DNA of 64,000 bases from Microvirga lenta. Lineage in GTDB: Bacteria; Pseudomonadota; Alphaproteobacteria; Rhizobiales; Beijerinckiaceae. The position numbers and the translations under genes were made by a program. The stretch is taken from the NCBI RefSeq assembly GCF_020532555.1, contig NZ_JAJBBR010000004.1, positions 434,001 to 498,000 of the forward strand, written 5' to 3'. The notes beneath the pieces are model-generated. The model did not search any database. It was not told the DNA's origin and worked only from the letters and a program-made list of their open reading frames with translations. This document shows, in pieces, positions 1 through 19,151 of this stretch (within the stretch, counting starts at the first letter, position 1; every line of letters begins with the position of its first letter).

Positions 1-537
1 TTCCGGCGGAAGATCGAGGCTTTTGGCCTTGCTGGTGTTGAGGCGCACGAAGCGGCCTTCGAGATCCTTGAAGGAGATCTGGTCCCCGGTGCTCTCCATC
101 AGGCCGCGCAGAAGGGCGCGTTCCGTTTCGAGTTCGCGGGCCAGCAGGCGCCGTTCATAGGCCGATGCCACCATGCTGGAGAGGGCCGCGGGATCCCAGG
201 GCTTGGGAACATAGGCCATGATCCGGCCCTTGTTCACGGCGCCGATCACGGCCTTGAGGTCGGCATAGCCGGTCAGGAGGATTGCTTCGGCATCGCTCCG
301 GTGGCGCGCCCGCGCCAGGAATTCGTCGCCCGGCATTTCCGGCATGCGCTGATCGGAGATGATGATCGCGATGTCGGGCTCGTGCTCGATGATGTCGAGC
401 GCCTTCAGGGGCGACGTGGTCGAAAGGACCCGGTAGTCGTTCTCGAAAAGATCCTCGAGCGCGACAAGGATGTCCGGCTCGTCGTCGACGACCAGGATCG
501 TGCCGTTCCTTGTAGGGTTGTCGCTCGACAGCGTCAT
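1..537 (-). CDS. Response regulator with REC-PAS domains, C-terminus cut by window edge
   Basis: The visible 179 N-terminal residues begin with a receiver domain. It has the acidic pair in VVDDEPD, a phosphoacceptor Asp in IISDQRMPEMPG, and the KPWD motif after the conserved Lys that is common in RpfG-like receivers. A short helix leads into the start of a PAS domain (GLMESTGDQISFKDLEGR). The ATG overlaps the stop of the upstream histidine kinase gene as ATGA, so it is the last visible gene of the chemosensory operon and a likely output protein. What follows the PAS (GGDEF, EAL, HD-GYP or kinase) lies outside the window, so its activity cannot be stated. By analogy with Wsp operons a diguanylate cyclase is a natural guess, but this is inference only. 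Confidence 0.85.
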   Translation of the reverse strand, partial: MTLSSDNPTRNGTILVVDDEPDILVALEDLFENDYRVLSTTSPLKALDIIEHEPDIAIIISDQRMPEMPGDEFLARARHRSDAEAILLTGYADLKAVIGAVNKGRIMAYVPKPWDPAALSSMVASAYERRLLARELETERALLRGLMESTGDQISFKDLEGRFVRLNTSKAKSLDLPPE

Positions 538-2258
538 GCGATGCTCTGCCTTGGGATCGTGATGATGAAGCTCGTGCCTCCCGAGGGGCTGGAATCCACG
601 GTGATCGTGCCCTTGTGGGCCTGAACTACGCTATAGGCGATTGCAAGGCCAAGTCCAGTTCCGGCCCCGACAGGCTTCGTCGTGAAGAAGGGCTCGAAGA
701 TGCGCTCGCGCAGCTCCGGCGGTATCCCCGGGCCCGTGTCGCTGATCCTGATGGTATAGCTTGTGTCGTCGCTCGATGTTTCAATATCGATGGCGCCGGT
801 TCCGCTGATCGCGTCCGCGGCATTGCCGATGATGTTCATGACCACCTGGTTCAGGAGGGCGGGCGAGCAGTAGAGGTCCGGCACGGCATTGTAGTGCCGG
901 CGGACGTCGATGCGCGTGCCGAGCTTGTGGCCGAGGAGCGCCACGACGGTTTCGATCGACTCCCGAACATTCACGGTCTGGAAATCGCCCTCGTCGAGCC
1001 GGGAGAAGCGCCGCAGGTTGAGAACCAGCTCCTGGATCCGCCCCAGGCCCAGCTTCATGGCCCCGACCCGTTCGATGCACTTGTTGATGGGCCGCTCCAG
1101 CCCCGCCTCCGGAGGAAGCCGCGTCGCGACGTCGGCGAGCACGCGTTCGACGGTGCCCTGGTGTGCCAGGATGAACGCGAGGGGATTGTTGATCTCATGG
1201 GCGATGCCTGCGACGAGCTCGCCGAGGGAGGCCATCTTGGCGGCCTGGACGAGCTTGGACTGCGTGTCCTTCAGGCGGTGGTTCGCCTCCTCCAGCTCCC
1301 GATTGGCCCTGGCCAGGGCTTCGGCCGAGGCGGCTTCCGCCCTTGCGCGCTCGAAGGCGAGCTCGCGCTCGCGCAGCTCCGCCTCGATGCGCCAGTTCTC
1401 GTCCTGCAGCAGCTTGCGGCGGACCAGGGCACGGATCCGGATCCGCATGACATCGGCATCGGCGCTCGTGGGCACGATGTCGTCGGCACCTGCGGCAAAG
1501 GCCTTGGACAGCATGTCTCCGCCGTCGTCGTTGCCTAGCCCGACGATGGAGAAGCTCGATACCTCCATGCCCGGAAGGGGAGCAAGTCCGCGATAGGCGT
1601 TGAGCTGCCGGCAGAGATCCAATCCGTCGAAGGTCGGGCTGAGGATGTTGACGAGGACGCAATCCCAAGCCGTGCTCGGAGAGCCGATCTGCCGGAGAGC
1701 CTCGGCCGGCTCCCGGGCCAGGGTGACGGCATAGCCCTCGCGGGAGAGAAGGTCCTGCAGGTAGGCCTGTCGGGTGGGGCTGTCGTCGACGATGAGGATG
1801 CAGGCCCTGCGGAACGTGCTGAAGCTCGGCGCCTCGTGCCCTTCCTGGGCCTCCGCGACGGGAACGGAGCGCCGGCGGAGCAGGGCGCGGATCCTCAGGA
1901 TGATGAGTTCTTGCTCGGCGGACTTGGAGATGTAGGCGTCCGCCCCGCTCTCCAGGCCCTGCCGCTCGACGGTGCGCTCCCGCGCTTCCGTGAGCATGAT
2001 GACCGGGATGGCCCGCGTGCGCACGTTCAGGCGCATCTGGCGCGTCAGCTCATCGCCGTTCATGCCCGGCAGGTGATAATCGGCAATGACGAGATCCGGG
2101 AGCTTCTCGTTCAGGCCGTCGAGGGCAGCCTCCGCGGTCGCCTGCCAGCTGACCCTGAAGCCGTTGGTTTCCAGGACGTACCGGAGCTGAAGGGCCTGCG
2201 TCTCGGAATCCTCCACCAGGAGAATGTGGGCTGCCTGCGTCCCAGGTCCCACGCTCAT
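534..2258 (-). CDS. Hybrid sensor histidine kinase with two N-terminal receivers (REC-REC-HisKA-HATPase)
   Basis: This soluble 574-residue kinase has no membrane segment. REC1 (about 10-125) is canonical, with phosphoacceptor Asp60 in IADYHLPG and Lys112. REC2 (about 150-275) is degenerate: the expected Asp is Asn204 (LVNILSP) and the beta5 Lys is missing. A coiled coil (about 280-340) joins it to a DHp helix with the H-box IAHEINNPL. The C-terminal ATPase shows an N box ([10 protein letters not shown]), DTGPGIP and a GTGLGLAI lid. The start is placed at 2258 because the ATG overlaps the cheB stop as ATGA. A longer open frame upstream is only a shadow of cheB. REC1 probably receives phosphate from the CheA-REC upstream and gates kinase output to the REC-PAS protein downstream. 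Confidence 0.88.
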
Positions 2259-3331
2259 TCGCCATCTCCTCGGGTCAGGCGCAGGAGCCTCGGCCCGATC
2301 AGGTCCAGGGGCAGGCTGGCGCTGACGCCGCCCATGCGAACGGCGGCGGCCGGCATTCCGTAGACGACCGCCGTGCTTTCGTCCTCTGCCACCGTGTATC
2401 CTCCCGCTTGGCGCAGTTCGAGGATGCCCTGTGCTCCGTCCTCGCCCATCCCCGTCAGGATGACGCCCAGGCCTCTCGATCCTACCGTCTTGGCCATGGA
2501 TTGGAACAGCAGCGTTGCAGACGGTCTCTGGCTGGCCAGCGCGGGAGAGGCGCTGATCTGCAGGGTTCCTGCCGGAGACAGCAGAAGGTGGCGGTCGCCG
2601 GGCGCGACGTAGACCTTGCCCGGGGCGGGGATTTCCTGGTCGCGCGCCACGCGGACCTCGAGCGGCATGAGCCCGTTGAGCCAGGAGGCGAAGCCCTCCA
2701 TGAAGGGCGCCCCCATGTGCTGGACGAGCAGGATCGGAATGGGAAAATCGGCCGGGAAGGCGCCCAAGACCTTCGCCAGAGCCGGCGGGCCGCCGGTGGA
2801 AGCTGCGATTCCCATGATCGAGGGCCGGAGGGGCGATCTTTCCCAGTCCCGCTTCTGCACCGGCGCGGGTTGAGCGTTCGGACGCCAGGCGAAGGAACGC
2901 TGTCTGACGACCGGAACCTGGCTCATGATGTAGAGCTGGGTGCAGATGGTTTCGGCAATGCCGTCGAAGCCTGCACTGGTCAGGCCGACGGGCTTCTCCA
3001 CGACCGTGAGGGCTCCGGCGCGAAGCGCGTTCATGGAGATCTTGAGCGACTCGTCCTCGACGCTGCCGGCGATCACGACGATCGGGGTCGGGTGGTCCGA
3101 CATGATCCGGCGCGTCGCCTCCAGCCCGTCCATGCCGGGCAGACGGATATCCATGGAGATCACGTCGGGCTGGACGCGGCCGATCTCGCGCAGCGCCTCC
3201 TCCGCGGAGCCGACCGCTGCGGCCACGACCAGGCGCGGATCGCGGGCGATGATGTGGACGAGAAGCTGCCGCACGACGAGGGAATCCTCGACCACCATCA
3301 CGCGGACAGGGACTTGCGACGTACTTCTCAC
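2255..3331 (-). CDS. cheB: CheB-type protein-glutamate methylesterase response regulator (WspF-like)
   Basis: This protein removes methyl groups from receptor glutamates, resetting sensitivity of the chemosensory array. At 358 residues it has the usual CheB layout: a receiver (about 9-125) with phosphoacceptor Asp61 in SMDIRLPG, a linker, and a methylesterase domain (about 170-350). All three catalytic positions are recognisable: Ser in AASTGGPPA, His in VQHMGAPF and Asp in GMGEDGAQG. The GTG start overlaps the cheA stop as GTGA, which indicates translational coupling. In Wsp systems the equivalent WspF is the brake on c-di-GMP output, and its loss gives wrinkly colonies. I expect a similar brake role here by homology of layout. 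Confidence 0.93.
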   Translation of the reverse strand: MRSTSQVPVRVMVVEDSLVVRQLLVHIIARDPRLVVAAAVGSAEEALREIGRVQPDVISMDIRLPGMDGLEATRRIMSDHPTPIVVIAGSVEDESLKISMNALRAGALTVVEKPVGLTSAGFDGIAETICTQLYIMSQVPVVRQRSFAWRPNAQPAPVQKRDWERSPLRPSIMGIAASTGGPPALAKVLGAFPADFPIPILLVQHMGAPFMEGFASWLNGLMPLEVRVARDQEIPAPGKVYVAPGDRHLLLSPAGTLQISASPALASQRPSATLLFQSMAKTVGSRGLGVILTGMGEDGAQGILELRQAGGYTVAEDESTAVVYGMPAAAVRMGGVSASLPLDLIGPRLLRLTRGDGE

Positions 3332-5592
3332 AGCAACTGCCCGATCGTTGCCAGCAGTTCGCGCTGGTCGAACTTCTGTTTGGTGATATAGGCGCTCGCA
3401 CCGAGATCGAGACCCCTGCGCACGTCCTCAGGATCCGCGCGCGACGTCATCAGGATCACGGGTATCGATGAAATGCGCGCATCGGCCTTGATCGCCTGCA
3501 GGAGACCGAAGCCATCCATGCGCGGCATCTCCACGTCGGCGACGACGAGATCCACCATGGTTTCTCCCGAGCGCAGCACGTTCAACGCGTCGATTCCGTC
3601 GACGCTGAGAAGAACCTGATAGCCCTGGGCCTCGAGGATGCTCTTCTCGAGGGTGCGGGTCGTGATCGAATCGTCCACCACGAGGACGGTCGTGGCATGT
3701 CGCTCCTTGTCGGGAGCCCATGCCGAAAGTCCCATTCCTCCGGCAGCGAGGCGACTCTCGTTGCGCACCCAGTGGTCGATCAGGAGTTCGGGATTCAGAA
3801 CGAGCGCCGGCATCTCGTCTTCCATCAGAACGGTGCCCGAAACCATCGCGTCGAGGCCGATGGCCTCGACATCGTTGACGAGCATGGTGCGGACGTCGTG
3901 AAACGCATTGACCGCGAAGGCGCAATGGCGTGCTCCATGTCGGACGAGCACAGCCTTCACGTTTCCGGCCTCGATGGGAATCTGGGCATTCGGAGATCCT
4001 GTCAGTGCCGCCAGGGCGATAACAGGTATGACAACGTCCTGCCCCCTTACCTCGATCCGAATGGTCGGGCGTCCTTCCACACTTTCCAGCGATTCCGCCC
4101 GCAGCCGGAGCAGGCGTTCGACGGCATGGGACGGCACGCCGTACATGCGATCCTCCGCCTCGACCAGGAGGAGAGACTGGCGTGCGGCCGTGAGAGGGAC
4201 ATTCAGCAGAACCTCTGTTCCCCAAGGGAAGCGCGGCCGCATCAGAACCGATCCGTGCAGTTTGCGGGCCGCCTCGGCCACCACGGAGAGTCCCATGCCG
4301 CGGCCTGAGAGGCGGTCGACCTCGCCAGCGGTCGAGAAGCCGGGGGTGAAGACGAGCGAGAGCAGTTGGTCGAGCATGGGCGGCATCGCATCTTCCGCCC
4401 TGGGCGCCAGGAGGCCGCGCTCGATGGCGACCTTTTCGATCCGCTGGAGATCGGGGCCTCGGCCGTCGTCCCGGATGCTGACAGCCAGGCGGCCGCCCCG
4501 GGAAGCGAGCTCGAGAACGATCTCGGCCCTCTCGGGCTTCCCTTTGCCCGCGCGTTCCGGCGCCGGCTCCACGCCGTGGCTCACCGCGTTGCGCAACAGG
4601 TGCATGATCGGATCCTTCAGCGCCTGCAGGACCCGGCGGTCGACCTGAAGGTCGAGGCCGATGGTGCGCACATGCACGTCGCGACCTTCCTCCCGGGCGA
4701 TTCCGCGCACCATATGGCCGAAGCCGCCGAAGACCGTTTCCGCCGCGACCAGCGAAATCCGGTCGATATCGTCCCGGAGCTGGCGTGCGGCCTGATCGAT
4801 GGACCAGGAGGATTGCTTCCGGCTCCGGGCAAGGGCCGAGAGCTTGCGGAACAGAGCTTTCAGATCCTGGTCGAAATCCCGCAGGCGAGGCGTTGCGGCA
4901 CCCGTCGTCCGCCCGGTGCGCTCTGCTGCGGATCCCTTTCCCGCAGGCGCACTTGAGACGAGTTGAGCATGAAGCGCGTCCCAGCCGCGCCGGAGACCGC
5001 GCACCTCGACCTCGATCTGCCGCAGAGTGTCGTCGAACGCCTCGTCGTCCTGCAGCTCCGCCATGAGGGCGTGCATGGAGCTCGACAGCTGCTCCATCTG
5101 TTCGGCGGCAATGCGGAGATAAGTGCCGGCACCCGCATCTGCGGGCGGGGTTGCGTCAGGCTTCGGCGGATGGTCCTTCCGCTCCTCCGCCTTCTGGGGA
5201 GGAGGTGCTGCAGGCCGCTCCCCGGGCGAAGTCGACTTCAGCGCCTGCAAGGCCGCCTCCGCCGACGCGGAACCGGCCGGTCCGGAGGATTCGGCGACGA
5301 GATCCTCGATGGTGTCGAGGCTCAGGCGGACGGCCGCGATCGTAGGCTTGTCCAGCTCCTGCCGGCCCTCCAGGATCCGCGAGAAGAGGGCCTCCAGGTG
5401 ATGGGCCACCTCCTCCACCGCCGGCAGGTCGACGGCGCGGGCCGCCCCCTTGAGGCTGTGGGCGCGGCGGAACACGTCCGCCATGTCGATCGTGCTTCGG
5501 TCCGCGCCGTCGAGGGCCGACCGGATCGCATGAAGATGCTCCCGATGCTCGACCTCGAAGGCTGCCAGCAGCTGTTTGCGGATATCCGTCAC
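3328..5592 (-). CDS. cheA: Hybrid CheA histidine kinase with C-terminal receiver (WspE-like)
   Basis: This central kinase of the array has 754 residues. An Hpt domain (about 1-105) carries the phosphorylated His45 in RAHSLKG. An acidic/proline linker follows, then a dimerisation/ATPase core with the N box LLRNAVSHGVE, DDGRGPD and GRGMGLSVV. A CheW-like regulatory domain spans about 485-620. A complete receiver (about 632-754) has VVADVEMPRMDG and a Lys at SAYITK. There is no separate P2 CheY-docking domain. The CheA-REC fusion is typical of Wsp (WspE) and Frz (FrzE) systems, not of flagellar chemotaxis. It starts at a GTG with GGAG upstream, 27 bases after the MCP stop. Its receiver may act as phosphate sink or relay. 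Confidence 0.93.
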   Translation of the reverse strand: MTDIRKQLLAAFEVEHREHLHAIRSALDGADRSTIDMADVFRRAHSLKGAARAVDLPAVEEVAHHLEALFSRILEGRQELDKPTIAAVRLSLDTIEDLVAESSGPAGSASAEAALQALKSTSPGERPAAPPPQKAEERKDHPPKPDATPPADAGAGTYLRIAAEQMEQLSSSMHALMAELQDDEAFDDTLRQIEVEVRGLRRGWDALHAQLVSSAPAGKGSAAERTGRTTGAATPRLRDFDQDLKALFRKLSALARSRKQSSWSIDQAARQLRDDIDRISLVAAETVFGGFGHMVRGIAREEGRDVHVRTIGLDLQVDRRVLQALKDPIMHLLRNAVSHGVEPAPERAGKGKPERAEIVLELASRGGRLAVSIRDDGRGPDLQRIEKVAIERGLLAPRAEDAMPPMLDQLLSLVFTPGFSTAGEVDRLSGRGMGLSVVAEAARKLHGSVLMRPRFPWGTEVLLNVPLTAARQSLLLVEAEDRMYGVPSHAVERLLRLRAESLESVEGRPTIRIEVRGQDVVIPVIALAALTGSPNAQIPIEAGNVKAVLVRHGARHCAFAVNAFHDVRTMLVNDVEAIGLDAMVSGTVLMEDEMPALVLNPELLIDHWVRNESRLAAGGMGLSAWAPDKERHATTVLVVDDSITTRTLEKSILEAQGYQVLLSVDGIDALNVLRSGETMVDLVVADVEMPRMDGFGLLQAIKADARISSIPVILMTSRADPEDVRRGLDLGASAYITKQKFDQRELLATIGQLL

Positions 5593-5619: not shown

Positions 5620-7296
5620 TCACAACCGATAGCGTTCGACGAGCCCGAGCAGCTGCTGCGAAAGATCCGAGAGGTTGGCCGCAGCCATATCGAGCTGGCG
5701 CGTTCCCGCCGCCGTCTGCTGGCTCGCCTGACGGATGTTCTGAAGGGCGCCCATGACCTGCTCGATGCCGAGCTGCTGCTGGTTCGTGGAGGCCACGATC
5801 TGCTGGAAGGTCTGAACGCTCTCCTGAACGCGGGTGGAAATCTCGGTGATCGTCTGCTGCGTCGTGTCCGTACGCTCCTTGCCGGCCGAAACGCGCTTCA
5901 CGGCCTCCTCCGTCAGCATGACGGACGAATTGATGCCGCGCTGGATGTCGCCGAGGATCGACCGCACCTGGGTGGTGGCATCCTTGGCCTGATCCGCGAG
6001 AACCTTCATCTCGGACGCGACGACGGCGAAGCTGCGGCCGTTCTCGCCCGCCGCTGCGGCTTCGATGGCCGCGTTGAGGGCCAGAAGATGGGTGCGTTCG
6101 GAGATGTCGTTGACCGTGGCGATGATCTCGCCGACCGCCTGCGTCTTCTCGCTGAGGGCGACGATGTTCTCCGCGACGGTCTCCGCCTGCTCGCGGATGG
6201 CATCCATCGCGCGCGCCGTCTCGTCGACCGCCTGCAGGCCGGAAAGGCTGGTCTGAGCCGTCGCTTGGGCCGAGGCGATGACCTCCTGCGCCCGCTTGCC
6301 GATCTGGGCGCCCGCATGGGTGATCTCGTCGACGGTGGCGGCCGTCTCCTGGACGGCGGCGAGCTGCTCCTCGACGCTCGCAGCCTGCTCCTGGGTCGAG
6401 GCGCGGATCTCCGCCGCGGCGGCATTGAGGTTTTCCGTGGCCTCGCGGCTCTGGCGCGCCAGCTGGCGCAGGCCCTCGACCATGCTGTTCAGGGTTCCGC
6501 CGAGGCGTCCGATCTCGTCGTTGCCGGTCATGGCGGTCTGACCTGCCAGGTCTCCTCGTCCGACCCGCTCCACGAAAGCCATGAAGGCGTTGAGGGGATT
6601 GGAAATCGAAGAGCGCAGGGCATAGGTGATGAGGACGCTCAGCAGAGCGACGCCTGCAAGGGCGAGCGCAATCGAAAGCCGGCTCTGCTCGTAAACCTCT
6701 CCGACGCGCTGCTGCCCGACCGCGATGGCCTGGTTGACCAGGTCACGTGTTTCCTCGAGAGTCCTGTTCCAGGCGCTGCGGCTGGTGTTCAGGGCGTTCT
6801 GGGTCGCCTGGGCTGCGGCGAAATCGCTGTTCTGGAGCGCCGTAAACTGCTGTTCGGTGGCGGATCGGATCCGGTTCAACTCGCTGTTGGCGGAATTGAG
6901 AAGCTCCGCCGTCCGCCGCCAGGCGTCCGCCCGTTCGTTGGTCACCGAACGAACCGCAAAGCTGTTGGTCGCGGCAATGGCCTGCGCCAGAGCCGCCTCC
7001 GTCGAAGCGGCCAGCCGTCCCCACTCCGCAATCAGTTCCTCGACATTCGCCTGCTGCTGGCCGAGCGCGCGAAGAAGATAGCGCGACAGCACCTCCTCCC
7101 GCACGGCGCGCATTCGGTTCTGCTGCTCGCCGACCATATCGATCTGCCGCATCGTGGAGAGATCGCGCGAGACGATCGTTTCCGTGGTCCGGCGAACATC
7201 CTCGAGCTGGGAAATCGTGTAGAGACCGAGCCCGACCATGAGGGCAACGATGACGGCGAAGCCGAGAAGAATGCGATTCGCGATCGAGACCGTCAC
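5620..7296 (-). CDS. Methyl-accepting chemotaxis protein, membrane-bound (WspA-like)
   Basis: This 558-residue receptor has one transmembrane helix near the N-terminus (about 8-28), a helical periplasmic domain of the four-helix-bundle kind (about 30-185), a second transmembrane helix (about 188-210), HAMP (about 210-265) and a long cytoplasmic signalling coiled coil. The hairpin tip is recognisable (LALNAAIEAAAAGENGRSFA). The C-terminus lacks the NWETF-type CheR-binding pentapeptide. The GTG start at 7296 sits just after the cheW stop and has GGAG upstream. The longer open frame to 7587 would run through cheW and is rejected. The ligand is unknown. In Wsp systems the equivalent receptor responds to surface contact. 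Confidence 0.92.
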   Translation of the reverse strand: MTVSIANRILLGFAVIVALMVGLGLYTISQLEDVRRTTETIVSRDLSTMRQIDMVGEQQNRMRAVREEVLSRYLLRALGQQQANVEELIAEWGRLAASTEAALAQAIAATNSFAVRSVTNERADAWRRTAELLNSANSELNRIRSATEQQFTALQNSDFAAAQATQNALNTSRSAWNRTLEETRDLVNQAIAVGQQRVGEVYEQSRLSIALALAGVALLSVLITYALRSSISNPLNAFMAFVERVGRGDLAGQTAMTGNDEIGRLGGTLNSMVEGLRQLARQSREATENLNAAAAEIRASTQEQAASVEEQLAAVQETAATVDEITHAGAQIGKRAQEVIASAQATAQTSLSGLQAVDETARAMDAIREQAETVAENIVALSEKTQAVGEIIATVNDISERTHLLALNAAIEAAAAGENGRSFAVVASEMKVLADQAKDATTQVRSILGDIQRGINSSVMLTEEAVKRVSAGKERTDTTQQTITEISTRVQESVQTFQQIVASTNQQQLGIEQVMGALQNIRQASQQTAAGTRQLDMAAANLSDLSQQLLGLVERYRL

Positions 7297-7297
7297 A

Positions 7298-7897
7298 TTA
7301 AACTCCAGGGGCAGGGGAAGAGGACAGGAAGGGGTGAAGAAGGCGGTCGACGTCGAGCAGAGATAGGACTCGCTCCTGATCTGCAAAGCCGGATGCCGCC
7401 TTGGCATAGCCCATGACGGCATCCTTCCGGAAATCGCCGGTCGTCTCGGATGCGAGACGGGTGACGTCCGCAACCTCGTGAGCGCGATCGACGCAAAGGG
7501 CGACTCGCGGCTGCTCCCGGCGGAGCAGCACCAGGTGGCGGTTCGCTCCATCCGTGTCCGAGGGGCCCTGTCCGAGGGCGGCGCCAAGGTCGATCACGCT
7601 CACCAGATGACCGCCGCGGCCGAGCACCCCCATGAGGGCCGCAGGGCCGCCCGGGACCGGCATGGGAGGCCGGAAGGGAAGGATTTCGGCGATCCTGTCG
7701 AGCGGAATGCCATAATGTTCGTGTCCGGCGCCGCAGATCAGGACACGGGTCACATCCGCGACAGGCTCCGTGCGGTCGCCGGGTCTGCTGGCGAGGCGTT
7801 CGGTCCTCTCGTCGAGAATGAAGCGTGTCCTCTCTTCGGCGGACAGGAGCCTTGTCCGGTCGAGCTGCCTGAGCTTGCGGCGCAGGGATTTTGCCAT
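7298..7897 (-). CDS. cheW: CheW-like coupling protein (WspD-like)
   Basis: This 199-residue coupling protein bridges receptor and kinase in the array. A charged N-terminal helix (about 1-45) precedes one CheW/SH3-like domain (about 48-190), with typical segments such as YGIPLDRIAEIL and SVIDLGAALG. It is the second of two cheW genes in the operon and the longer one, as WspD is longer than WspB in Pseudomonas. It starts one base after the cheR stop and its own stop abuts the MCP start. The N-terminal extension is rich in Arg and has no recognised domain. Confidence 0.88.
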   Translation of the reverse strand: MAKSLRRKLRQLDRTRLLSAEERTRFILDERTERLASRPGDRTEPVADVTRVLICGAGHEHYGIPLDRIAEILPFRPPMPVPGGPAALMGVLGRGGHLVSVIDLGAALGQGPSDTDGANRHLVLLRREQPRVALCVDRAHEVADVTRLASETTGDFRKDAVMGYAKAASGFADQERVLSLLDVDRLLHPFLSSSPAPGV

Positions 7898-9971: not shown

Positions 9972-12098
9972 TCAGCGAGGGGGGCGCAGAGCGTCCTGGA
10001 CGGCGTTGAGCCCGACATTCGCCTCCTCGGAGAAGCCGGTACGCTGGACCGCGCGAAAGATCTGCTCGGCGTCCCGATAACGGCCAAGCTTGAGATAGGA
10101 CCACCCCTTGATCAGCATCAGGTCGTTCTGCTCGGCAACGATCCGCCCCCGCTCGTCGAGGGACAGGATGGCCTCCACGTAGCGTCCGTCCCGGTAGGCG
10201 GCGACGGCCCGTTGAGCCAGGATCGTCGCTTGGAGCTCAACCCGCCGCTCCGTCGTCTGCGGGGCGGCGGCTGCCGCGATGGCGGCGTGGGAGGTCAGGT
10301 CCTTGCGCAGATAGGCGAGGGTCTTGCCATAAGCCGCCTCTTCCCGGGTGCGGGCGCCGCCGTTCCGAAGGGCCTGATCGAAGGCGGCAACCGCTTCGAG
10401 GGGGCGGTTGATCTCCATGAGGCACCAGCCGAGGCTCAGCGCGGCATCGGCGGACAGGTTGCCGGGGCTGCGCGTGACGGCGCAGTTGCGCCTCGCGCCG
10501 GTCCTGACCTGAACGGGGGCGCTTGGTCGCGATACCGTCTCGTAAACGACGGCGGGTGCCGCCCGGCTTACGACGGGAGCTGCGCGTGATGCCCCTACGG
10601 ACACCTGCTCCACGGACCGAACCACGGCCTCCGGCGCCGTCTCGGGCGGGGGCGGAACGATGGGCTGCGGGACCGCCGCCGCCCGTCCCGGGTTCCGGCC
10701 TGCGGCAAGATCGGCGATGCGTTGGGAGCGGCCGCGCCACCGGGAAACGATGGCATTGAAGCCTGCACGGTCCCTCAGCCGCTGAGTGGCGAGAGCCAGG
10801 CCATAGGCCGAGGCCTCGTCATCGGCGTTCCAGCCCAGGGCGGTCCTGAACCATTGCCGGGCCGTCGGGATCTGTCCGGTATTGTACGAGTACCAGCCCA
10901 GGGCCTGAGCCCCGTCGGCATGGCGCTGCTGGGTGACCACGGGCACGATTCGCGTGACGACGGGAGGATCGAGACGCGGCGGAGGATCCTGGCTCAAAAG
11001 CGCCGTCGCGATATTGAGATAGGCCTTCATGGTGTCGGCGGACTTGTCCCGCCACTCATAGGCGAAGGCCTCGGCCTCCGTGAGCCGGTTGAGGGCGCGG
11101 AGGGACATGGCATAGCCCTCCGCCGCCTTGGGGCCGCCATTGCGGTCGAGGGCGGTCTTGAACCAGTCGAGGGCCTTCGCGGGATTGTCGTGGTGATAGT
11201 TGTACCACCCGAGCAGAAGCGCATTTCCCGCCCCGCTCTCATTCTCGGCGAGCCGCGCAACGACCGCGAGGTCCTCCGCGGTGGCAGTCTGTTTGCTGTC
11301 GGCCGAGGCGCGCTCGACCCGGCGGCGGGCGAGCTCGTCGCGAACGGCGCCGAAATCGTCCGTGCCCGCCCGCTCGAACCGCAGAAGATCCGTCACCTGC
11401 TCCTCGGGGAGGAGTTCCAGGGCCTTCTGGAGCGTGCCGAGGCGCTCGGCAGGATCGGTGCAGTTGGTGAGCAGGTAGGTGTAGACGTCCTTCGTCCGGC
11501 CCGGCTGGTCGGTCTTGGCGAAGGCCTCGGCGACACGCCAGAGGATATCGACATTGGCGCAGGTCAGCAGGCTCGGGGCATCGGTCGCGACGCTCAGGAC
11601 GGTCCGCCACTGCTCGCTGTCGGACGCATTGATCAGGCGTCGGCGCGATTCCGCGGTTTCGAGGGCCGTCAGCAAGTCCTGCGGCGGCTTCCATTGCGGA
11701 TCCGAGCCCTGGCGCTCGGCAATGGCGGCCCGCATCTCGGCAAGGCGGCCCTCCGTATAGAGGTTCCACAGCTGATCCAGCAGGGGATCCTTGGGAACGA
11801 CAGGTCCTGCGGAAAGCTGCGAGAGATCGCCGGGGGGCGTCCAATTGGGGTAGAGCGCGCGGAGACGGGCGATCTCCGCATCGACCCGGCGCGTATCGCC
11901 CTGCGATGCGAAATAGCGGAGCGCGGATTCATCGACCTGCGGCGTGGAACCTGCAGGAGGAGAACCTGGAGAGCTGCTTGCCGGGGCAGGTGCTGCCGGA
12001 TTGGGCGCCTGAGCATTGCCGTCGCCGAACTGCTGAGCGAAGGCCGCGAAGCCGAGGCCGACGACCGCAATCGCTATGGCACCACGAGCTAAAGGCAT
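9972..12098 (-). CDS. Periplasmic TPR protein of the cellulose operon (BcsK-like, no outer-membrane barrel)
   Basis: The 708-residue product begins with a signal peptide (about 1-21, ending AAFAQQ) and a Pro/Ala/Ser-rich segment. Repeated helical pairs follow through most of its length, including the Sel1/TPR-like LGWYSYNTGQ and SLGWCLMEINRP units. It replaces the usual BcsC at the end of the bcs operon, but the C-terminal beta-barrel domain of BcsC is absent: the protein ends in another TPR unit. Rhizobial type III cellulose operons carry a comparable TPR gene called bcsK, which I recall rather than verified. The ATG lies 10 bases inside the end of bcsZ. It probably interacts with the glucan or peptidoglycan in the periplasm. 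Confidence 0.75.
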   Translation of the reverse strand: MPLARGAIAIAVVGLGFAAFAQQFGDGNAQAPNPAAPAPASSSPGSPPAGSTPQVDESALRYFASQGDTRRVDAEIARLRALYPNWTPPGDLSQLSAGPVVPKDPLLDQLWNLYTEGRLAEMRAAIAERQGSDPQWKPPQDLLTALETAESRRRLINASDSEQWRTVLSVATDAPSLLTCANVDILWRVAEAFAKTDQPGRTKDVYTYLLTNCTDPAERLGTLQKALELLPEEQVTDLLRFERAGTDDFGAVRDELARRRVERASADSKQTATAEDLAVVARLAENESGAGNALLLGWYNYHHDNPAKALDWFKTALDRNGGPKAAEGYAMSLRALNRLTEAEAFAYEWRDKSADTMKAYLNIATALLSQDPPPRLDPPVVTRIVPVVTQQRHADGAQALGWYSYNTGQIPTARQWFRTALGWNADDEASAYGLALATQRLRDRAGFNAIVSRWRGRSQRIADLAAGRNPGRAAAVPQPIVPPPPETAPEAVVRSVEQVSVGASRAAPVVSRAAPAVVYETVSRPSAPVQVRTGARRNCAVTRSPGNLSADAALSLGWCLMEINRPLEAVAAFDQALRNGGARTREEAAYGKTLAYLRKDLTSHAAIAAAAAPQTTERRVELQATILAQRAVAAYRDGRYVEAILSLDERGRIVAEQNDLMLIKGWSYLKLGRYRDAEQIFRAVQRTGFSEEANVGLNAVQDALRPPR

Positions 12099-13183
12099 TG
12101 CGGATACTTTTCACCAATCAGCGACATCGACAACAGGTACAGGGTCGACGGGTAGTAGAGCTGTGGTTTGAACTCCTTGAGCGCTTGCGGAACGGGCGTT
12201 CCGTCGAGCGCACAGGACAGGACCGCGGACAGGGCGACATAGCCTTGGTCCGTCAATCTTTCCCTGACGGCACCCGTCAGGACATTGACGACGGCCACAC
12301 CTTCATTGTTCGCCGACCAGCGCTGATTGAGAGTTCTGAGCCACTCCACATTCGTCATTCCCGCCCTCAACAGGTAAAGCGGTATCCTTAACGAGTTGTA
12401 ACCAAACTCCGGCGGAAAGCCCTCTGCGGGCTGGGTTTGCAGCCTGTTGCGCACCGAAATCCAGTCGGCCGGGAGATTCGTCCTGCCGGACGTCGCCTGA
12501 CGGAGCAGCGAAAGGCCGCTTCGGGCAACGCCGGCCCAGTCGTATTCCGGCGCGAGAGCGGCCAGGGTCGGAAAGGCTTCGAAGATCCAGTAGGACAGGT
12601 TGATCACAGGTCCGTCGGTCCTGTCATCCTCGCCGAAGCCGCTGGACGCCGGGAGGAGAAGGGTCGATCCGCCGGTGCGAAGGAAGGCGTTCTTCCCGAT
12701 GGCCTTGGCGAGCTTCTGCGCGGCTGCCGTGTAGCGCGGCTCGTTCCAAAGCACCCCCGCCTTGGCAAGAGCGTAGGCGATCAGAATATCGCCGTCCGTG
12801 GCATTGTTCGGGTCCGACACCCGGGGCCGTGCCGAAGGATCCCATTTCCAGACGGAGAGGCCGTCGTCACGGATCAGGAACTCGGTCAGGGTGAAGGTCC
12901 AGATCTTCTCGAACGTTCGCCTGTCCCCGGCGGCGTAGGCGAGGAGCAGGCCGTAGCCCTGTCCCTCGCTGTGACTGATGTTGCCGTTCGCGTTGTCGAC
13001 GACGCGTCCGTTGTCCTCGACGAAACGGGAGCGATAAGCCTCCCAGTCGGAGGAGGAGACCGTTCCCGTCATCCTCAACTGCTCGATGGTTGCACCGTGC
13101 AGCGGCTGCATGGCCGCGGCCAGAACGAGAAACGCGGAGGCGAACCGAAGACGGCGAAACGAAGCATGAAGGAGACTCATCAT
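12089..13183 (-). CDS. bcsZ: Endo-beta-1,4-glucanase BcsZ, glycoside hydrolase family 8
   Basis: This periplasmic cellulase of the synthase operon trims or releases glucan chains and is needed for normal cellulose output in many bacteria. The 364-residue product has an N-terminal signal peptide (about 1-31) and a GH8 (alpha/alpha)6-barrel. The catalytic acid is most likely Glu73 in SHSEGQGYG. The conserved NNATDGDILIAYAL segment carries the sugar-binding Asp residues. The ATG at 13183 overlaps the bcsB stop as ATGA, which fixes the start; a longer upstream frame is a bcsB shadow. Length and motifs match the family. Confidence 0.93.
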   Translation of the reverse strand: MMSLLHASFRRLRFASAFLVLAAAMQPLHGATIEQLRMTGTVSSSDWEAYRSRFVEDNGRVVDNANGNISHSEGQGYGLLLAYAAGDRRTFEKIWTFTLTEFLIRDDGLSVWKWDPSARPRVSDPNNATDGDILIAYALAKAGVLWNEPRYTAAAQKLAKAIGKNAFLRTGGSTLLLPASSGFGEDDRTDGPVINLSYWIFEAFPTLAALAPEYDWAGVARSGLSLLRQATSGRTNLPADWISVRNRLQTQPAEGFPPEFGYNSLRIPLYLLRAGMTNVEWLRTLNQRWSANNEGVAVVNVLTGAVRERLTDQGYVALSAVLSCALDGTPVPQALKEFKPQLYYPSTLYLLSMSLIGEKYPQCL

Positions 13184-15813
13184 GAGCGGCGTCCGAGCCG
13201 GCTCAGGAGCACATAGGTCGCCGCTCCCAGGAGGGTGCAGCATGCCACCATGAGAAGAGCGTATTGAAGGATGTTGATGGACATCCAGTTCGCCGCGACG
13301 AGCCTCAGGTTCCAGAACGAGAGAGGCAGCGTCTGAACGAAGATGAAATCGTCGATCGGCTGGACCGCGAGCTTCTCCTCGCTCGGCTCGAGGGCCGCGG
13401 CGCGGCCAGCCACCTGGGACCAGAGCATCGGAGCCGCGAGCCGCGCCGTTTCCTGCGCGAGGGATTCCTCCGTTCGAGCCGTCACCAGGGTCCAGGTGCC
13501 TGCTCCCTCCGTCCGGTTCTGCGCCAGCAGCAGGGTGGAGCGCTGAGGCGGCTCGTAGGCGAGGCTGCCCTTGTCTTCCAGGCTCAGCGAGGCGAGGGAC
13601 AGGTTGAAGGTCCGCTCCATCCAGTCTTTGAACGAGGCGATGGTCTGCTGAATGATGCCGCGCCGCTGGATGCTTTCCGACCAACGCCTGCGGACTTCGT
13701 CCGTGGAGTTCATGTCGGACTGATCGAGCACCATCCGGCTCATGGTGGGGTCATATTGGGTGCTTGCAACCTGCAGACCCTGGCTCTCGCTGCGGCCCTC
13801 CGCGGCGCCGGACGGCGCCAGCCGACCCGGCGAGGGAGTCGACTGCCAGATCATCCTCAGATTTTCCGACACGTTGACCCGGTCGAGAAGGCCCGCGGGA
13901 AGCTGATCGATGGCGCCGACGAAGACCACGGACCGGTCGCTGAGCGACGCGGCATTGGCGAACTGCGCACGTACGGGAGCGCCCGAATCCCGCGCCATGC
14001 GGGCGAGGAGCGTGCCCGAGGCCGAATAGGTGAGGGGATCGGGACGCGCCAGCACGAAGGTGGCCGGGAAATCCCCATAGGGAAAACCGCCGGAGCTGAG
14101 CGCTGCGAGATCGGGCTCGCGTCCGATCCTGCCGAAATTGGGGATGTTGAGCGACGTGCTGTCGAAGAGAACGAACCGGTTCATCTCCGACAGGGTTTCG
14201 CCGGGAGCGCAGCGCTCATCCGCATCCGTCAGGAGCACGGCTTCCAGCGAGAGGTGGTTGATGCCCGCCTCGAAATTCCGCATCGGGACCCTGATCTCCT
14301 GCCGCCGGAAGACGCTTCCGCGCGAGGTGATCGTCATGGTCGAGGCGATCTTGCCGTTCACGTAGATGTCGAAGTGACTGCCGGGCTTGACCATCGATGT
14401 ATGGGCGGCATCGAGGGACAGGGTGGCTTCCCCGTAATCCGTCGCGTAGAAGTCCGACGGGAGATTGATCGCGAAGCGCGCCCGGAACCGCCGCCCCGAA
14501 AACTCCTGGGTGGGGATGCCCATATCCGCGAAGCGGATGGAGCGCCGGCCCAACGTGGTCGGCACCTCCGGCCAGTGCCAGCTCGCGGTATCGATCGTGG
14601 TGCGGTCCAGGACGCGTCCGTTGAAGGCCGCTCCTCCGACGATGTTGATCGCGGTGTCGAGGTCGTTCCAGGTCGGGCCCGTGACGACGAGGGACGGCAT
14701 GGAGGATGTGCCGTCCTGCATCATGATCGCGAGGGGCTGCACTGCCGCTGCTTCCGGCAGCGCGGCAACGAGGCTCCGCAGCTCGCCCGCCGTTCCCATG
14801 ACGACCTTGATCGTTCCGACAGGGGATGGGCCCGGATCGGCTTCGAATACCTGGATGACCGGATGGGCGTAGCGCCCGCGCAGGGCGACCATCTGAACCA
14901 GGCGAAGGAGCCGGTCGCGGATCTCGGGCCGGTAGATCTTGGGGGCGACCACACGGATCGTCGTCACGCCCTTCTGGTCGATTCCGACCGCAGGCAGATC
15001 TTCCAGGCTGCGGAGCGTCTTGGACGAACCTTCGAAGATGAGCTTGGTGGCTTCGGCGCTGATGTCGGTCCAGAGCTCGTAGGTGGCCCGGACGGTGCAG
15101 TCCGTCCGATGACGCTGGAGCGCTTCCAGCCGAATGATATTCTGGCCGCCGCGAAGGAGACCGGGGCGGATGGGCAGAACGATCTGCTGGAATCCCTGCG
15201 AGGAGGAGATCGGAACGTTGACGACCGCTTCCCCATTGATGATCGCCCTGAGGCGCGAGGCCTCGGGCATCACCACGACGGCATTCTGATAGGCGATGGC
15301 GATGCTCGCGCGGCTCGCGGCCTCATCCGGCGTGAGATGAAAGGCCCAGCTCCTGCTGTCGTTCTCCCCGTCGAGACGGATCATCTCGAAAGGCAGGAGG
15401 GGGCGCTCGAGGCGGGCCGTGTTGCGCGGAGCGGATGCCTGCGTGGTTGCCGGCGCCGTCTGGACTGCTCCCTGAGGACGGACGGCCGGCGGCGCCGGTC
15501 TCCCGGCCTGGGGCGGAGGAGATTGGCGCGTATCCTGAGGCGCGATGTCGAACGGAGCCGCGGGCGCGCTCGGAGCCGGCGCAGCCGGTCGCGGAACGGG
15601 CGGACGGGCCGGCGCGACGCCCCCCGGCTGCATGCTGAACGGCGCTGCGGCGGGGACTTCCTCCCGTGGCGGCGTGGCCGGTGCGGCGGGAGACGACACG
15701 GGCGGTGCCCCCGGCCGGGTGGGCGACATCGTGAAGGGGGCTGCCTGTGCGAAGGCCGGTCCGGCTCCCAAGAGGCCGAACATCGCCAGGAGGGGGATGA
15801 GGTGCGCACGCAT
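13180..15813 (-). CDS. bcsB: Cellulose synthase regulatory/periplasmic subunit BcsB
   Basis: BcsB is the periplasmic partner of BcsA that guides the nascent glucan and is anchored by one C-terminal helix. The 877-residue protein has a signal peptide (about 1-24) and a Pro/Ala-rich low-complexity stretch (about 25-125) with recurring PFxMxP-like units. Alternating carbohydrate-binding and flavodoxin-like segments follow, then a terminal transmembrane helix (about 845-868) followed by Arg residues. The ATG at 15813 is eight bases after the bcsA stop. The long Pro-rich N-terminal segment is larger than in enterobacterial BcsB and may be a spacer near the peptidoglycan. Confidence 0.92.
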   Translation of the reverse strand: MRAHLIPLLAMFGLLGAGPAFAQAAPFTMSPTRPGAPPVSSPAAPATPPREEVPAAAPFSMQPGGVAPARPPVPRPAAPAPSAPAAPFDIAPQDTRQSPPPQAGRPAPPAVRPQGAVQTAPATTQASAPRNTARLERPLLPFEMIRLDGENDSRSWAFHLTPDEAASRASIAIAYQNAVVVMPEASRLRAIINGEAVVNVPISSSQGFQQIVLPIRPGLLRGGQNIIRLEALQRHRTDCTVRATYELWTDISAEATKLIFEGSSKTLRSLEDLPAVGIDQKGVTTIRVVAPKIYRPEIRDRLLRLVQMVALRGRYAHPVIQVFEADPGPSPVGTIKVVMGTAGELRSLVAALPEAAAVQPLAIMMQDGTSSMPSLVVTGPTWNDLDTAINIVGGAAFNGRVLDRTTIDTASWHWPEVPTTLGRRSIRFADMGIPTQEFSGRRFRARFAINLPSDFYATDYGEATLSLDAAHTSMVKPGSHFDIYVNGKIASTMTITSRGSVFRRQEIRVPMRNFEAGINHLSLEAVLLTDADERCAPGETLSEMNRFVLFDSTSLNIPNFGRIGREPDLAALSSGGFPYGDFPATFVLARPDPLTYSASGTLLARMARDSGAPVRAQFANAASLSDRSVVFVGAIDQLPAGLLDRVNVSENLRMIWQSTPSPGRLAPSGAAEGRSESQGLQVASTQYDPTMSRMVLDQSDMNSTDEVRRRWSESIQRRGIIQQTIASFKDWMERTFNLSLASLSLEDKGSLAYEPPQRSTLLLAQNRTEGAGTWTLVTARTEESLAQETARLAAPMLWSQVAGRAAALEPSEEKLAVQPIDDFIFVQTLPLSFWNLRLVAANWMSINILQYALLMVACCTLLGAATYVLLSRLGRRS

Positions 15814-15821
15814 GGCGGAGC

Positions 15822-18005
15822 CTACTTGACCGCCGGAACGGGCGGGATCGAAGCGCCGAAGCGCTGCAACCCGGAGAGATAGGCGAGCCCTCTGCCGGTC
15901 TGATAGATCGACACCGTGAGGAACCAGAGCGTACCGCGGAGGATGCCGATATCCTGATGCCGGCGCTTCTGGAAATGGCTCCACTGATCCGCATTGGCGA
16001 AGGCCAGGTCCGCGATGAGCCGGTGATGCTCCGGCGTTTCGGTGAGGAAACGGCAGCCGATGAGAATTCCCTTCTCGTCGATGGTCATCTTGCGGACTTC
16101 CATCGGAAGCTGGTTGATCGGCAGGTCGGAGAGCGGCGTGAATTCAAGCGTGCCGAAGGCGCCGCGCTTGAGGCCCGGAAGGGCGGATTGCGAGAGGCGC
16201 AGGCTCGCTCCTCCGACCGACACGTCCCTGACGATGCCCTCGACGATCTTGTCGCCCATCACGAACTGGCAGGGGCGATCGACGACGACGCGGTGGCTCT
16301 GGCGCCGGGTGGCGCGTTCCGACACGACCCCGAGGGCGCAGCCGGCGATGATCAGATTCAGGAAGTTCCAGGCTCCGGTCACGAGCGTGACATCAGCCTT
16401 GTAGGGCTCGGCCCAGATCCGCACGACGGTCGCGACCACGCCGAGCAGCAGGATTCCGAAGACGATGAAGTAGGGCGCCCCCAGTTCGGACACGCGGTTC
16501 TGGTTCATGACCTCCGTCTTCGCCGTCACCTTGAAGGTGGGCTTGCGGGGATTGGCGATCACGGACAGGAGGGCCGGCAGCAGGTAGAAGGTCTGGATGT
16601 ACTCGTACAGATCTGAAATCCATGGCCAGCGGTAGCGGCCATAGAGATAGTTCTGCATCATGAAGTTCACCATCATGTAGGTGGACGTGTAGGCCAGGAA
16701 CTCGCCCCCCGAGGCCATGAAGATCTCGAGCGAAAAGAACAGGTAGCAGAGGGGAGAGACCAGGAAGCAGAACCGGGTGAAGGGAAAGAGCCAGAAGAAC
16801 GAGCTCGACATGTAGCAGAGGCGCTGCGAGATCCTCAGGCCGCGCTTCAGGGGCGGGAACCGGTAGCGCAGGATCTGCACCATCCCCTGGGCCCATCGGG
16901 ACCGCTGGCCGATGAAGCTCGCGAAGCTCTCCGGCTGCAGGCCGGCGATCAGCGGCTTGTCCACATAGATGCTTCGCCAGCCCCGCGAATGGAGTTCGAG
17001 CGCGGTTTCGCAGTCCTCCGTGATGCTGAGGCCGCTGAAGCCGTCGGTCTCCTGCAGGGCTTCACGCTTGAGAATGGCGGCGGATCCGCAGAAGAAGGAG
17101 GCGTTCCACTTGTCCAGGCCCCGTTGGATCACGCCGTAGAACATCTCGTTCTCGGACGGCATCGTCTGAAAGGTGCCCAGATTCCGCTCGAGAGGGTCAG
17201 GATTGATGAAGAAGTGGGGGGTCTGGACCAGAAAGAGGTCCTTCTCGGTGCTGAAATACCCGACCGTCTCCTCTAGGAAGCTTCGGGCGGGAGCATGGTC
17301 GGCATCGAAGACGGCGACCAGGTCGCCGGTGGAATTCTCGAGCCCGTTATTGAGGTTGCCTGCCTTCGCATGCTCGTTTCTGGCACGGGTGAGATAATTG
17401 ACCCCCAGCGACGCGCAGAGGGCCTGGAGCTCGGCGCGCCTCTCCCGTGCCTCCCTGGCAAGGGCCGGATTCGGCGATTCGCATTTCTCGTCGGTGCCGC
17501 CATCGTCCAGGAGCCACACGGTCAGCTTGTCCGGGGGATAGGCCATGCCCTTCGCGGCCGACAGGGTCGTGGCCAGGAGATGGGCGCTCTCGTTGTAGCT
17601 CGGAACGAAGACGTCGACGGTCGGCAGGTTGTCCCGGTCGAGAGGCGGTGCCGTCCGTGAGCCCAGGGGGCTGGAGACCACGAACAGGCTGAGGAACAGC
17701 ATCATCACGCTGTACATTTCGGCCATGTAGAGCAGGAAGGCCGGAATGTAGTTCGTGAACTCGGTGATCGGCGGCAGGGTGCTGGTGGTGCGCCAGAAGA
17801 CATAGCGCAGGACGATCGCCGTACCGAGGGCCAGCGCGATGAGGCGCCAGACGCCCTGAGCCCGGAAGAACTTCAACACGATCATGCTGGCAACGACCAC
17901 GAGGCCGGCAATGAGATGTGTCTGGAGGCTGATGGGAAGGGCGACGAGCAAGAAAATAAGCGCGGCCGCCACGGCCCAAAAGGCCAAGATAAGACCCTTT
18001 TGCAT
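15822..18005 (-). CDS. bcsA: Cellulose synthase catalytic subunit BcsA with PilZ domain (UDP-forming)
   Basis: This inner-membrane GT2 enzyme polymerises UDP-glucose into beta-1,4-glucan and threads it through its own channel. The 727-residue protein has N-terminal helices and a GT domain with the D,D,D,QxxRW signature (DADHAPA, the SITEDCE acid, QRSRWAQG). Several more membrane helices follow, then a PilZ domain (about 560-680). The PilZ carries both c-di-GMP motifs: RQSHR (RxxxR) and DVSVGG (D/NxSxxG). Activation by c-di-GMP is therefore expected. This matters because a Wsp-like array lies directly downstream and no cyclase gene is visible inside the bcs operon itself. Confidence 0.96.
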   Translation of the reverse strand: MQKGLILAFWAVAAALIFLLVALPISLQTHLIAGLVVVASMIVLKFFRAQGVWRLIALALGTAIVLRYVFWRTTSTLPPITEFTNYIPAFLLYMAEMYSVMMLFLSLFVVSSPLGSRTAPPLDRDNLPTVDVFVPSYNESAHLLATTLSAAKGMAYPPDKLTVWLLDDGGTDEKCESPNPALAREARERRAELQALCASLGVNYLTRARNEHAKAGNLNNGLENSTGDLVAVFDADHAPARSFLEETVGYFSTEKDLFLVQTPHFFINPDPLERNLGTFQTMPSENEMFYGVIQRGLDKWNASFFCGSAAILKREALQETDGFSGLSITEDCETALELHSRGWRSIYVDKPLIAGLQPESFASFIGQRSRWAQGMVQILRYRFPPLKRGLRISQRLCYMSSSFFWLFPFTRFCFLVSPLCYLFFSLEIFMASGGEFLAYTSTYMMVNFMMQNYLYGRYRWPWISDLYEYIQTFYLLPALLSVIANPRKPTFKVTAKTEVMNQNRVSELGAPYFIVFGILLLGVVATVVRIWAEPYKADVTLVTGAWNFLNLIIAGCALGVVSERATRRQSHRVVVDRPCQFVMGDKIVEGIVRDVSVGGASLRLSQSALPGLKRGAFGTLEFTPLSDLPINQLPMEVRKMTIDEKGILIGCRFLTETPEHHRLIADLAFANADQWSHFQKRRHQDIGILRGTLWFLTVSIYQTGRGLAYLSGLQRFGASIPPVPAVK

Positions 18006-18176
18006 CAGTCCAGGTTCTCGGTTGATGTTTCTCTAAGGCATGCGGTAGGCATAGAGCAGGACATAATGAGGATCTATTACTATCTCCTCGACTGTTCTGC
18101 TTCCAATTTACGCAGCTATAGTGAACGAAGTCTGCCTGGATGTGATACGTAATAAAATTGTGGACGATTTGGGGCG

Positions 18177-19151
18177 CTACTGCGCCGGCGGCGGCGGGGG
18201 CACCACAGGATAGCCGGAGAGAGGGGCCGAGGGCACGTCCGGTTGGGCGGGCTCCGGCAGCACCGTATCCTTGTCGACGATGGCGCGTGCCGGCTCCACG
18301 CTCTCCTGGACAATGACGCGGCGTGCAGGGGCGAGGCTGCGGGGACGAGATCCCAGGAGACCTTCGGTTGCGCCTATGGCGAGCGGGTTGATGGGAGCAT
18401 TCATCTGCCCGAGATAGGCCGGCGGCGGAGGCGGGGCGCCGTAGGGGTTCCAGGCGCTCGACATGAAATAGGCCGGGATGGTGAAGGCGTACATGGTCCG
18501 CAGGAGCTGGGCCTCCGTCGCGTCTGCGTCGCAGAGGCGCAGGCGAAGCGAGATCGCCCCGTGCGTCATGAAAATGGCCGGCTCGCTCGGCTCGATCTGC
18601 TGCCAAGCATAGAGGCACAGGTCCCCCGTCGCCGAGCGTCCCGTGGCGAAGCCGAAGGGCCCGTACTTGTTCTGCGCGTAGAGAAGCGACGTCCGCATGT
18701 CGATTCCCGGAAAGCGCTCCTCCATCTCGGCCTGGATGATTTCCGGCGTCAGGGGGCGGATCCTGAGGGTGTCGTCGATCTCGGACAGCGTCTCGGGATC
18801 GTTGACCATGCTCACGTAAAAGGCATTCTGCCCCAGTGTCATGGAGGCGGTCGAAAGGGCGATCTCCTGCGAAACGCCGTTCTGGTATCTGCGCTGCAGA
18901 ACCGCGACGACCGCGGGGCCGCCTGGAGGCGGAACGATGATGGCCTGGGTAGCCGGCACCTCGCTCATCAGAGTCATGAAGCCGAGATCGGACCGTGTCG
19001 AACACCCGGCCGCTGCCAGAGCGAAGACAGTGAGAAAGGCTTTCGAGACCCTGCCGAGCCACGCCTTCGCCGCCGCACGGGAACGACCGGCACCTGCGAC
19101 GTCGCGGCGGGCGCCGAAGCCTTTCCGATCCTGGGGCAGTGACTGGGGCAT
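18177..19151 (-). CDS. bcsN: Cellulose biosynthesis lipoprotein BcsN
   Basis: First gene of the cellulose operon. The 324-residue product has a lipoprotein signal with lipobox AAAGC, then a conserved region beginning PATQAIIVPPPGG and RRYQNGVSQEIAL, matching my memory of the rhizobial BcsN family. The C-terminal 60 residues are Pro/Ala-rich. BcsN is found in alphaproteobacterial bcs operons and its mechanism is unknown. The start is uncertain: ATG at 19151 gives a long n-region before the lipobox, and a GTG at 19223 would add 24 residues. Neither has a strong ribosome binding site. A 171-base gap separates it from bcsA. Confidence 0.75.
   Translation of the reverse strand: MPQSLPQDRKGFGARRDVAGAGRSRAAAKAWLGRVSKAFLTVFALAAAGCSTRSDLGFMTLMSEVPATQAIIVPPPGGPAVVAVLQRRYQNGVSQEIALSTASMTLGQNAFYVSMVNDPETLSEIDDTLRIRPLTPEIIQAEMEERFPGIDMRTSLLYAQNKYGPFGFATGRSATGDLCLYAWQQIEPSEPAIFMTHGAISLRLRLCDADATEAQLLRTMYAFTIPAYFMSSAWNPYGAPPPPPAYLGQMNAPINPLAIGATEGLLGSRPRSLAPARRVIVQESVEPARAIVDKDTVLPEPAQPDVPSAPLSGYPVVPPPPPAQ

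Follow-up and report, generated by a model that had tools for sequence, protein, structure and literature searches.

A Che3-type chemosensory gene block joined to a cellulose operon in Microvirga and, separately, in Caulobacter-type genomes

Introduction

In the genome of the soil bacterium Microvirga lenta (NCBI RefSeq assembly GCF_020532555.1), a block of chemosensory (che) genes follows a cellulose synthesis (bcs) operon on the minus strand. Both occupy positions 1-19151 of the window, by which is meant the whole stretch of 64,000 nucleotides that was analysed (contig NZ_JAJBBR010000004.1, positions 434,001 to 498,000). Judged by sequence, the che genes belong to the chemosensory type represented by Che3 of Rhodospirillum centenum and form an autonomous module of eight genes. 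Within Microvirga the che-bcs linkage is conserved, and in Caulobacter-type genomes the block has independently been joined to another cellulose operon; bcs and che each have their own promoter-like element. On balance we lean, by a little over an even chance, to a Che3-type module with two hybrid-kinase outputs, of which cellulose is probably one important target and not the sole one. What lies downstream in the R. centenum Che3 cascade, and what its outputs are, remains elusive according to the excerpt of the original study used here (PMC3868531; this and all other papers cited by PMC number are represented by excerpts). A Che3-type module that has twice independently been joined to cellulose operons offers a concrete candidate output for that class, and the Microvirga and Caulobacter-type loci are two genetic systems in which a cellulose output can be tested. 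Among the matches listed in the open PMC literature, outside which most subscription papers lie, no title describing a che-bcs joining was found.

Gene content of the locus

Genes were called from open reading frames and Pfam matches, with start codons in the window picked by the analyst, and are as follows.

1..537, minus strand: HHK2, hybrid kinase REC-PAS-HisKA-HATPase-REC (gene start only; continues left of the window to G000:C14:432624, L015:10624-12537)
534..2258, minus strand: cheS, kinase REC-REC-HisKA-HATPase; REC1 intact, Asn at the phospho-Asp position of REC2
2255..3331, minus strand: cheB, REC and methylesterase (Pfam)
3328..5592, minus strand: cheA with C-terminal receiver, Che3 clade (Pfam and tree)
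5620..7296, minus strand: mcp, chemoreceptor with periplasmic four-helix bundle, HAMP and signalling domain
7298..7897, minus strand: cheW (second)
7899..9371, minus strand: cheR with TPR (TPR match under the Pfam cut-off)
9353..9859, minus strand: cheW (first)
9972..12098, minus strand: bcsK, TPR protein of type III bcs operons (name after excerpts of PMC6559018 and PMC9012009)
12089..13183, minus strand: bcsZ, GH8 endoglucanase
13180..15813, minus strand: bcsB
15822..18005, minus strand: bcsA, cellulose synthase with PilZ (GT2 and PilZ; TIGR03030 at 910 bits, over the cut-off)
18177..19151, minus strand: bcsN (PF17038)

A preliminary description of this DNA had reported bcsN, bcsA, bcsB, bcsZ and a TPR gene, then 112 bases and the che genes, and this order is borne out by the reading frames and Pfam. 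The che block runs cheW-cheR(TPR)-cheW-mcp-cheA(REC)-cheB-cheS(REC-REC-HK)-HHK2, its eight genes following one another with overlaps of 4-19 bases or gaps of at most 27 bases. The intact PilZ domain reported for BcsA is likewise present, with GT2 and PilZ matches and the motifs RQSHR and DVSVGG readable in the sequence. With bcsN, bcsA, bcsB, bcsZ and bcsK all found, the gene content is that of a type III bcs operon; the last of these was named from its position and its TPR repeats, a bcsK model being absent among the matches. The type III operon of Starkeya N1B has the same gene content in the excerpt of PMC6559018, but there bcsN is divergent whereas in the window it is co-directional, and the window operon, unlike that of Starkeya, is followed by a che block. 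Peptide ABC transporter genes come next after HHK2, to the left of the window.

Ancestry of the chemosensory genes

Two CheWs, a CheR with TPR, a CheA fused to a receiver and CheB are common to the window and to Pseudomonas Wsp (WspABCDEFR; component list in the excerpt of PMC8919034), and the block had been labelled Wsp-like. This label did not survive comparison of CheA, gene order and output genes, all of which point to the R. centenum Che3 type, with no GGDEF output. A tree was built from 45 hand-chosen CheAs, of which a few are partial. In it the 20 window-type rows all fall into a single clade (support 100/99), which joins seven Azospirillaceae rows including R. centenum CheA3 (100/100); six of these seven were taken from 61 matching genomes. 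The Wsp references were eight loci with a REC-GGDEF output (L152, L156-L161 and L165), six of them from 21 matching genomes, and their CheAs fall in a separate clade (100/100) along with three loci not labelled Wsp beforehand (L048, L166 and L167). Forcing window-type and Wsp CheAs together costs 533 log units and is rejected by the approximately unbiased (AU) test (p-AU 4.3e-5). Neither E. coli CheA nor the two other CheAs of the genome group with the window CheA. The class serving alternative cellular functions (ACF) is described as having multidomain response regulators and a CheA outside the flagellar classes (excerpt of PMC3447774); by this description the window may fit, since receiver-kinase outputs agree with it and the CheA lies apart from E. 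coli CheA and the two others of the genome.

Gene order tells the same two systems apart. All eight Wsp reference loci are ordered MCP, CheR, CheA, CheB, WspR, their CheW genes being resolved in part, whereas in the window block the MCP stands after CheW-CheR-CheW and directly before CheA. The R. centenum locus was recognised from residues given in the excerpt of PMC3868531, since H49 and D663 of CheA3 and D54, A191 and H453 of CheS3 fit exactly. It has the same order as the window, CheW-CheR-CheW-MCP-CheA-CheB-CheS, a CheA-REC of the same clade, and a CheS with intact REC1 and degenerate REC2. The window differs in its CheS kinase (HisKA-HATPase against PAS-HWE in CheS3), in its eighth gene (a CckA-like HHK2 where the excerpt lists CheY3) and in the adjoining cellulose operon. 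In R. centenum, Che3 (CheA3-CheS3-CheY3) governs cyst development (PMC3868531, excerpt).

Could the block be a member of the Wsp family that has lost WspR? The two CheWs, CheR-TPR, CheA-REC, the absence of CheY and the four-helix-bundle receptor would all suit such an origin, WspA likewise having a four-helix-bundle sensor. The CheA tree and the AU test contradict it, as does the place of the MCP, which precedes CheR in the eight Wsp loci and follows it in the block, and one genome (G229) carries a CheA of each clade. With the cluster also devoid of a REC-GGDEF gene, Wsp membership was rejected, and a lost WspR is regarded as extremely improbable. A chemosensory gene set that resembles Wsp on paper need not work via a receiver-GGDEF cyclase.

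Two observations touch on Wsp-like systems in related genomes. Besides its window-type block, G229 (L167 and L168) has a separate Wsp-clade CheA cluster with a receiver at the output position, on which GGDEF was not found. In the family of M. lenta, L048 (G038:C138) holds a Wsp-clade CheA and a WspR-like receiver that begins at the contig end, so Wsp-like systems are also present in this family.

Output kinases CheS and HHK2

Over 340 aa of the REC-REC-linker part, CheS is 37% identical to R. centenum CheS3. The REC1 Asp is kept in 32 of 32 aligned rows; at the phospho-Asp position of REC2 the window has Asn, the 12 commonest forms have Asn, Gly, Ala or Asp, and CheS3 has Ala. Two N-terminal receivers of which, by sequence, only the first appears phosphorylatable are a feature of the Che3 type. 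What the preliminary description had named a hybrid kinase is more exactly REC-REC-HisKA-HATPase; PAS was not detected in it, and it differs in this from the PAS-HWE kinase of the type. CheY3 is also missing from its expected place, HHK2 and then the ABC transporter genes following cheS. With a HisKA-HATPase that lacks PAS, the window CheS represents a variant of the Che3 type. In R. centenum, CheA3 phosphorylates CheS3 REC1 and switches CheS3 off, a transfer known with the CheA3 REC Asp mutated (excerpt of PMC3868531).

The leftmost gene had been described as a REC-PAS protein that might carry GGDEF beyond the window edge. Its REC-PAS part stands; read leftward, the protein proves to be a full hybrid kinase of 637 aa, REC-PAS-HisKA-HATPase-REC, ending outside the window, and GGDEF was not found on its full length, so that this candidate was rejected. 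The REC1 Asp and the HisKA His of HHK2 are kept in 32 of 32 rows. Its kinase-REC part scores best with the PRK13557 kinase model and then with two models of CckA, the kinase of the CckA-ChpT-CtrA relay (373 and 321 bits), all under their cut-offs, and among PDB entries the closest is 5idj, titled simply 'Histidine kinase', and the third is 5idm, a CckA chain. HHK2 is unlike CckA in falling below the 1000-bit NCBIfam equivalog cut-off and in carrying an N-terminal receiver.

In an Azospirillaceae block (L171, 12600-15563), a CheS-like protein has three receivers, HisKA-HATPase and a fused Hpt; possibly, relay partners are here united in one chain.

Linkage to the cellulose operon within Microvirga

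Among 48 Microvirga genomes, CheA occurs in 35, an orthologous BcsA in 42 and both in 32; neither module is present in three. Conservation of the linkage in related genomes, which had been proposed as a check, was found in 30 of the 31 genomes that hold both modules and can be judged. By coordinates, 27 of the 32 are linked on one contig (12.3-13.3 kb), and three more (G150, G179 and G188) have bcsK beside cheW at contig ends, while a contig end leaves G152 indeterminable. The recurrence of the arrangement across the genus indicates more than chance. The site is laid out as creatininase, bcs, che and ABC genes, either module being absent at times; nine of the ten che-less bcs genomes have a downstream flank available, and in all nine bcsK is followed by the ABC genes.

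Over 20 linked genomes, the distances for che and for bcs show a correlation of 0.98, against 0.48 for the solute-binding protein, 0.53 for the permease and 0.09 for one ATPase of the neighbouring transporter. The high value may reflect plain vertical inheritance beside a mosaic transporter. On the ABC-transporter tree, whose ABC1 part looks mosaic, che changes five times and bcs three times, and on the bcs tree che changes three times. At the G182 che locus (L143, G182:C1:1451001-1470500), the che genes are nearest to M. subterranea and the ABC genes to M. arsenatis, which hints at transfer.

Spread of the block and a second joining

In the family of M. lenta, 14 of 149 genomes (M. lenta counted) match the window CheA at E 1e-60, including one Wsp-clade CheA (G038) and one fragment (G102). 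Class-wide, eight of 289 genomes pass a threshold of 1e-90, and of these M. lenta, G008 and one G229 locus alone are of the window type as judged by score or locus; the type is thus rare in the class as a whole. The best 80 of 501 relatives include members of Methylobacterium, Roseomonas, Caulobacter, Phenylobacterium and Chthonobacter, and the nearest named one by CheA is M. subterranea (78% identity). Plasmid pL11-C of Pseudoroseomonas cervicalis carries the whole eight-gene block with unrelated genes on both sides (L155 4832-18928; its annotation lists no CDS for cheB, which falls in a gap). This plasmid block lies one gene from an annotated rpoD-type sigma factor.

In C. segnis strain FS and two relatives (L185 3424-15311, L212 and L213), the block is followed on the same strand, after about 220-250 bp, by a complete operon bcsAB-bcsC-bcsD-GH8, in which bcsAB is fused and has PilZ. 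Among 348 genomes searched in the Caulobacter family, three of 23 with the block are linked to a bcsAB operon, the downstream flank being judgeable in 21 of the 23. This joining is taken as independent because Microvirga has another type of operon, and has it on the other side of the block; pairing with a different cellulose operon makes a functional pairing probable. Without the discovery case, a rough uniform-insertion estimate that assumes one bcs operon per genome puts the probability of one or more bcs neighbours at about 0.009-0.017, which is suggestive, not strong. A conserved sequence lies before bcsAB in L185, L212 and L213. Three Roseomonas-type genomes had seemed to offer further bcs linkages, but these were not upheld, as the contigs proved to be of different lengths.

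Several findings weigh against cellulose as an output. Of the 48 Microvirga genomes, ten have bcs but no che and three have che but no orthologous bcs, and in G182 the che block lies on a different contig from bcs. Among the 39 block genomes outside Microvirga, nine (some of them metagenome-assembled) have no BcsA match at 1e-40. When loci are grouped by shared flanking genes, only two of about 22 contexts with enough flank adjoin bcs and the other 20 do not; the grouping is rough, since one group mixes Roseomonas-type and Phenylobacterium loci. No partner gene other than bcs was found to recur beside the block across genera; the single flanking-gene cluster that spans many genera (18 loci) has an AcrB-type transporter as its tested example. 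The preliminary description had proposed a dedicated cellulose switch, of which the conserved joining holds and the dedication is weakened, because each module also occurs without the other.

These data bear on a reading in which che and bcs merely share a conserved site and are co-inherited, the block controlling, for instance, resting-state or envelope traits. In its favour, synteny in the genus extends to the peptide ABC genes behind the block, either module can occur alone, unrelated genes adjoin the block in most contexts, and one copy is on a plasmid. Against this, bcs and che share their history far more closely than either does with the ABC neighbours, and the second joining involves a non-orthologous cellulose operon. 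We consider neighbourhood without function possible, though rather doubtful, and slightly favour cellulose as an output of the Che3-type module.

Promoter-like elements

Two upstream elements accompany the modules.

9911..9942, minus strand: promoter-like element before cheW (GTTGC or TTGCA, then CCYATNTAAtg)
19245..19275, minus strand: conserved element before bcsN, holding TTAACTAT (19266-19273), one base off the CtrA half-site TTAACCAT

Most of the 26 Microvirga loci compared share the element before cheW, also where bcs is absent; it is weaker in L060, L068 and L143, and a sigma-70 scan, which found no promoter where 1.6 were expected, did not detect it. A single promoter shared by bcs and che was rejected as unlikely, the cheW element being kept where bcs is absent. 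One obligate bcs-che operon is also unlikely, since the promoter-like elements are separate and each module occurs alone.

The half-site TTAACCAT is that of CtrA (excerpt of PMC3692519). Of 32 bcsN upstream regions, 30 contain either it or TTAACTAT, among them every one of the 28 that are full-length, and 22 of these 28 have exact TTAACCAT; the expectation per region is 0.0014, calculated from 1.45 million strand-bases of Microvirga DNA, and the 28 cases are not independent because the genomes are related.

It is conceivable that the receptor array feeds a relay of the CckA-ChpT-CtrA type, in which CheA would act through CheS and HHK2 on CtrA, which would bind the predicted half-sites before bcsN. 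Chemotaxis-like input would then time cellulose production with development, and the cassette would be a portable sensor captured by cellulose operons at least twice. The motif before bcsN, however, is also present in che-less genomes and so provides no evidence for the link to che itself, and no CtrA-like site was found in the spacers before bcsAB in the C. segnis group. A CtrA relay of this kind is accordingly held to be quite improbable.

Possible routes from receptor to cellulose

Control of cellulose by chemosensory genes is already known from wspF-like and cheR mutations in Pseudoalteromonas, and wspF of P. fluorescens, cited there, likewise affects cellulose (excerpt of PMC8919034). For the Che3-type module, by analogy to CheA3 and CheS3, CheA under receptor control would phosphorylate CheS REC1 and so gate CheS. 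CheS and HHK2 might then set the flow of phosphate, via a putative unlinked Hpt protein, to response regulators that would alter the expression or activation of cellulose synthesis, with cyclic di-GMP (c-di-GMP) acting on the BcsA PilZ as a separate input. The Azospirillaceae CheS relative with fused Hpt is counted in favour of such a relay.

Alternatively, the module could be a functional equivalent of Wsp that raises c-di-GMP via an unlinked diguanylate cyclase and so activates BcsA through PilZ. The PilZ domain is intact and the M. lenta genome has 14 GGDEF proteins; for Caulobacter, it has been suggested that Hmr, a putative Hpt phosphorelay, acts on c-di-GMP via DgcB (excerpt of PMC11481889). 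No REC-GGDEF output (WspR) was found in the che cluster, and no receiver on any of the 14 GGDEF proteins (three of which were read without their first 44-87 residues), so that a receiver-linked cyclase is an unlikely source of the c-di-GMP. A relay via a putative unlinked Hpt is more likely than a receiver-linked cyclase, and the functional equivalent of Wsp as a whole is judged unlikely.

Receptor sensor domain and other CheA clusters

Besides the block, M. lenta has two further CheA clusters, on contigs C15 and C32. The former (L049, G000:C15:1-3842), on a 3.8-kb contig, encodes a CheA-like protein of 935 aa in which two stretches resemble CheW and one resembles a receiver.

In block-type loci outside the genus, the MCP sensor domain is 28-45% identical to that of the window and the signalling domain 79-92% (row L077, in the wrong frame, omitted); four of five Azospirillaceae rows align poorly or hardly in the sensor domain. 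With a sensor sequence that drifts this fast, nothing indicates one shared signal, and a single ligand common to the MCP family is not supported. The Pfam 4HB model was matched in all 16 members at E up to 1 (best 3.6e-8), the window MCP at E 0.0014 lying below the cut-off, and the sensor domain was modelled as four long helices (pLDDT 85.5).

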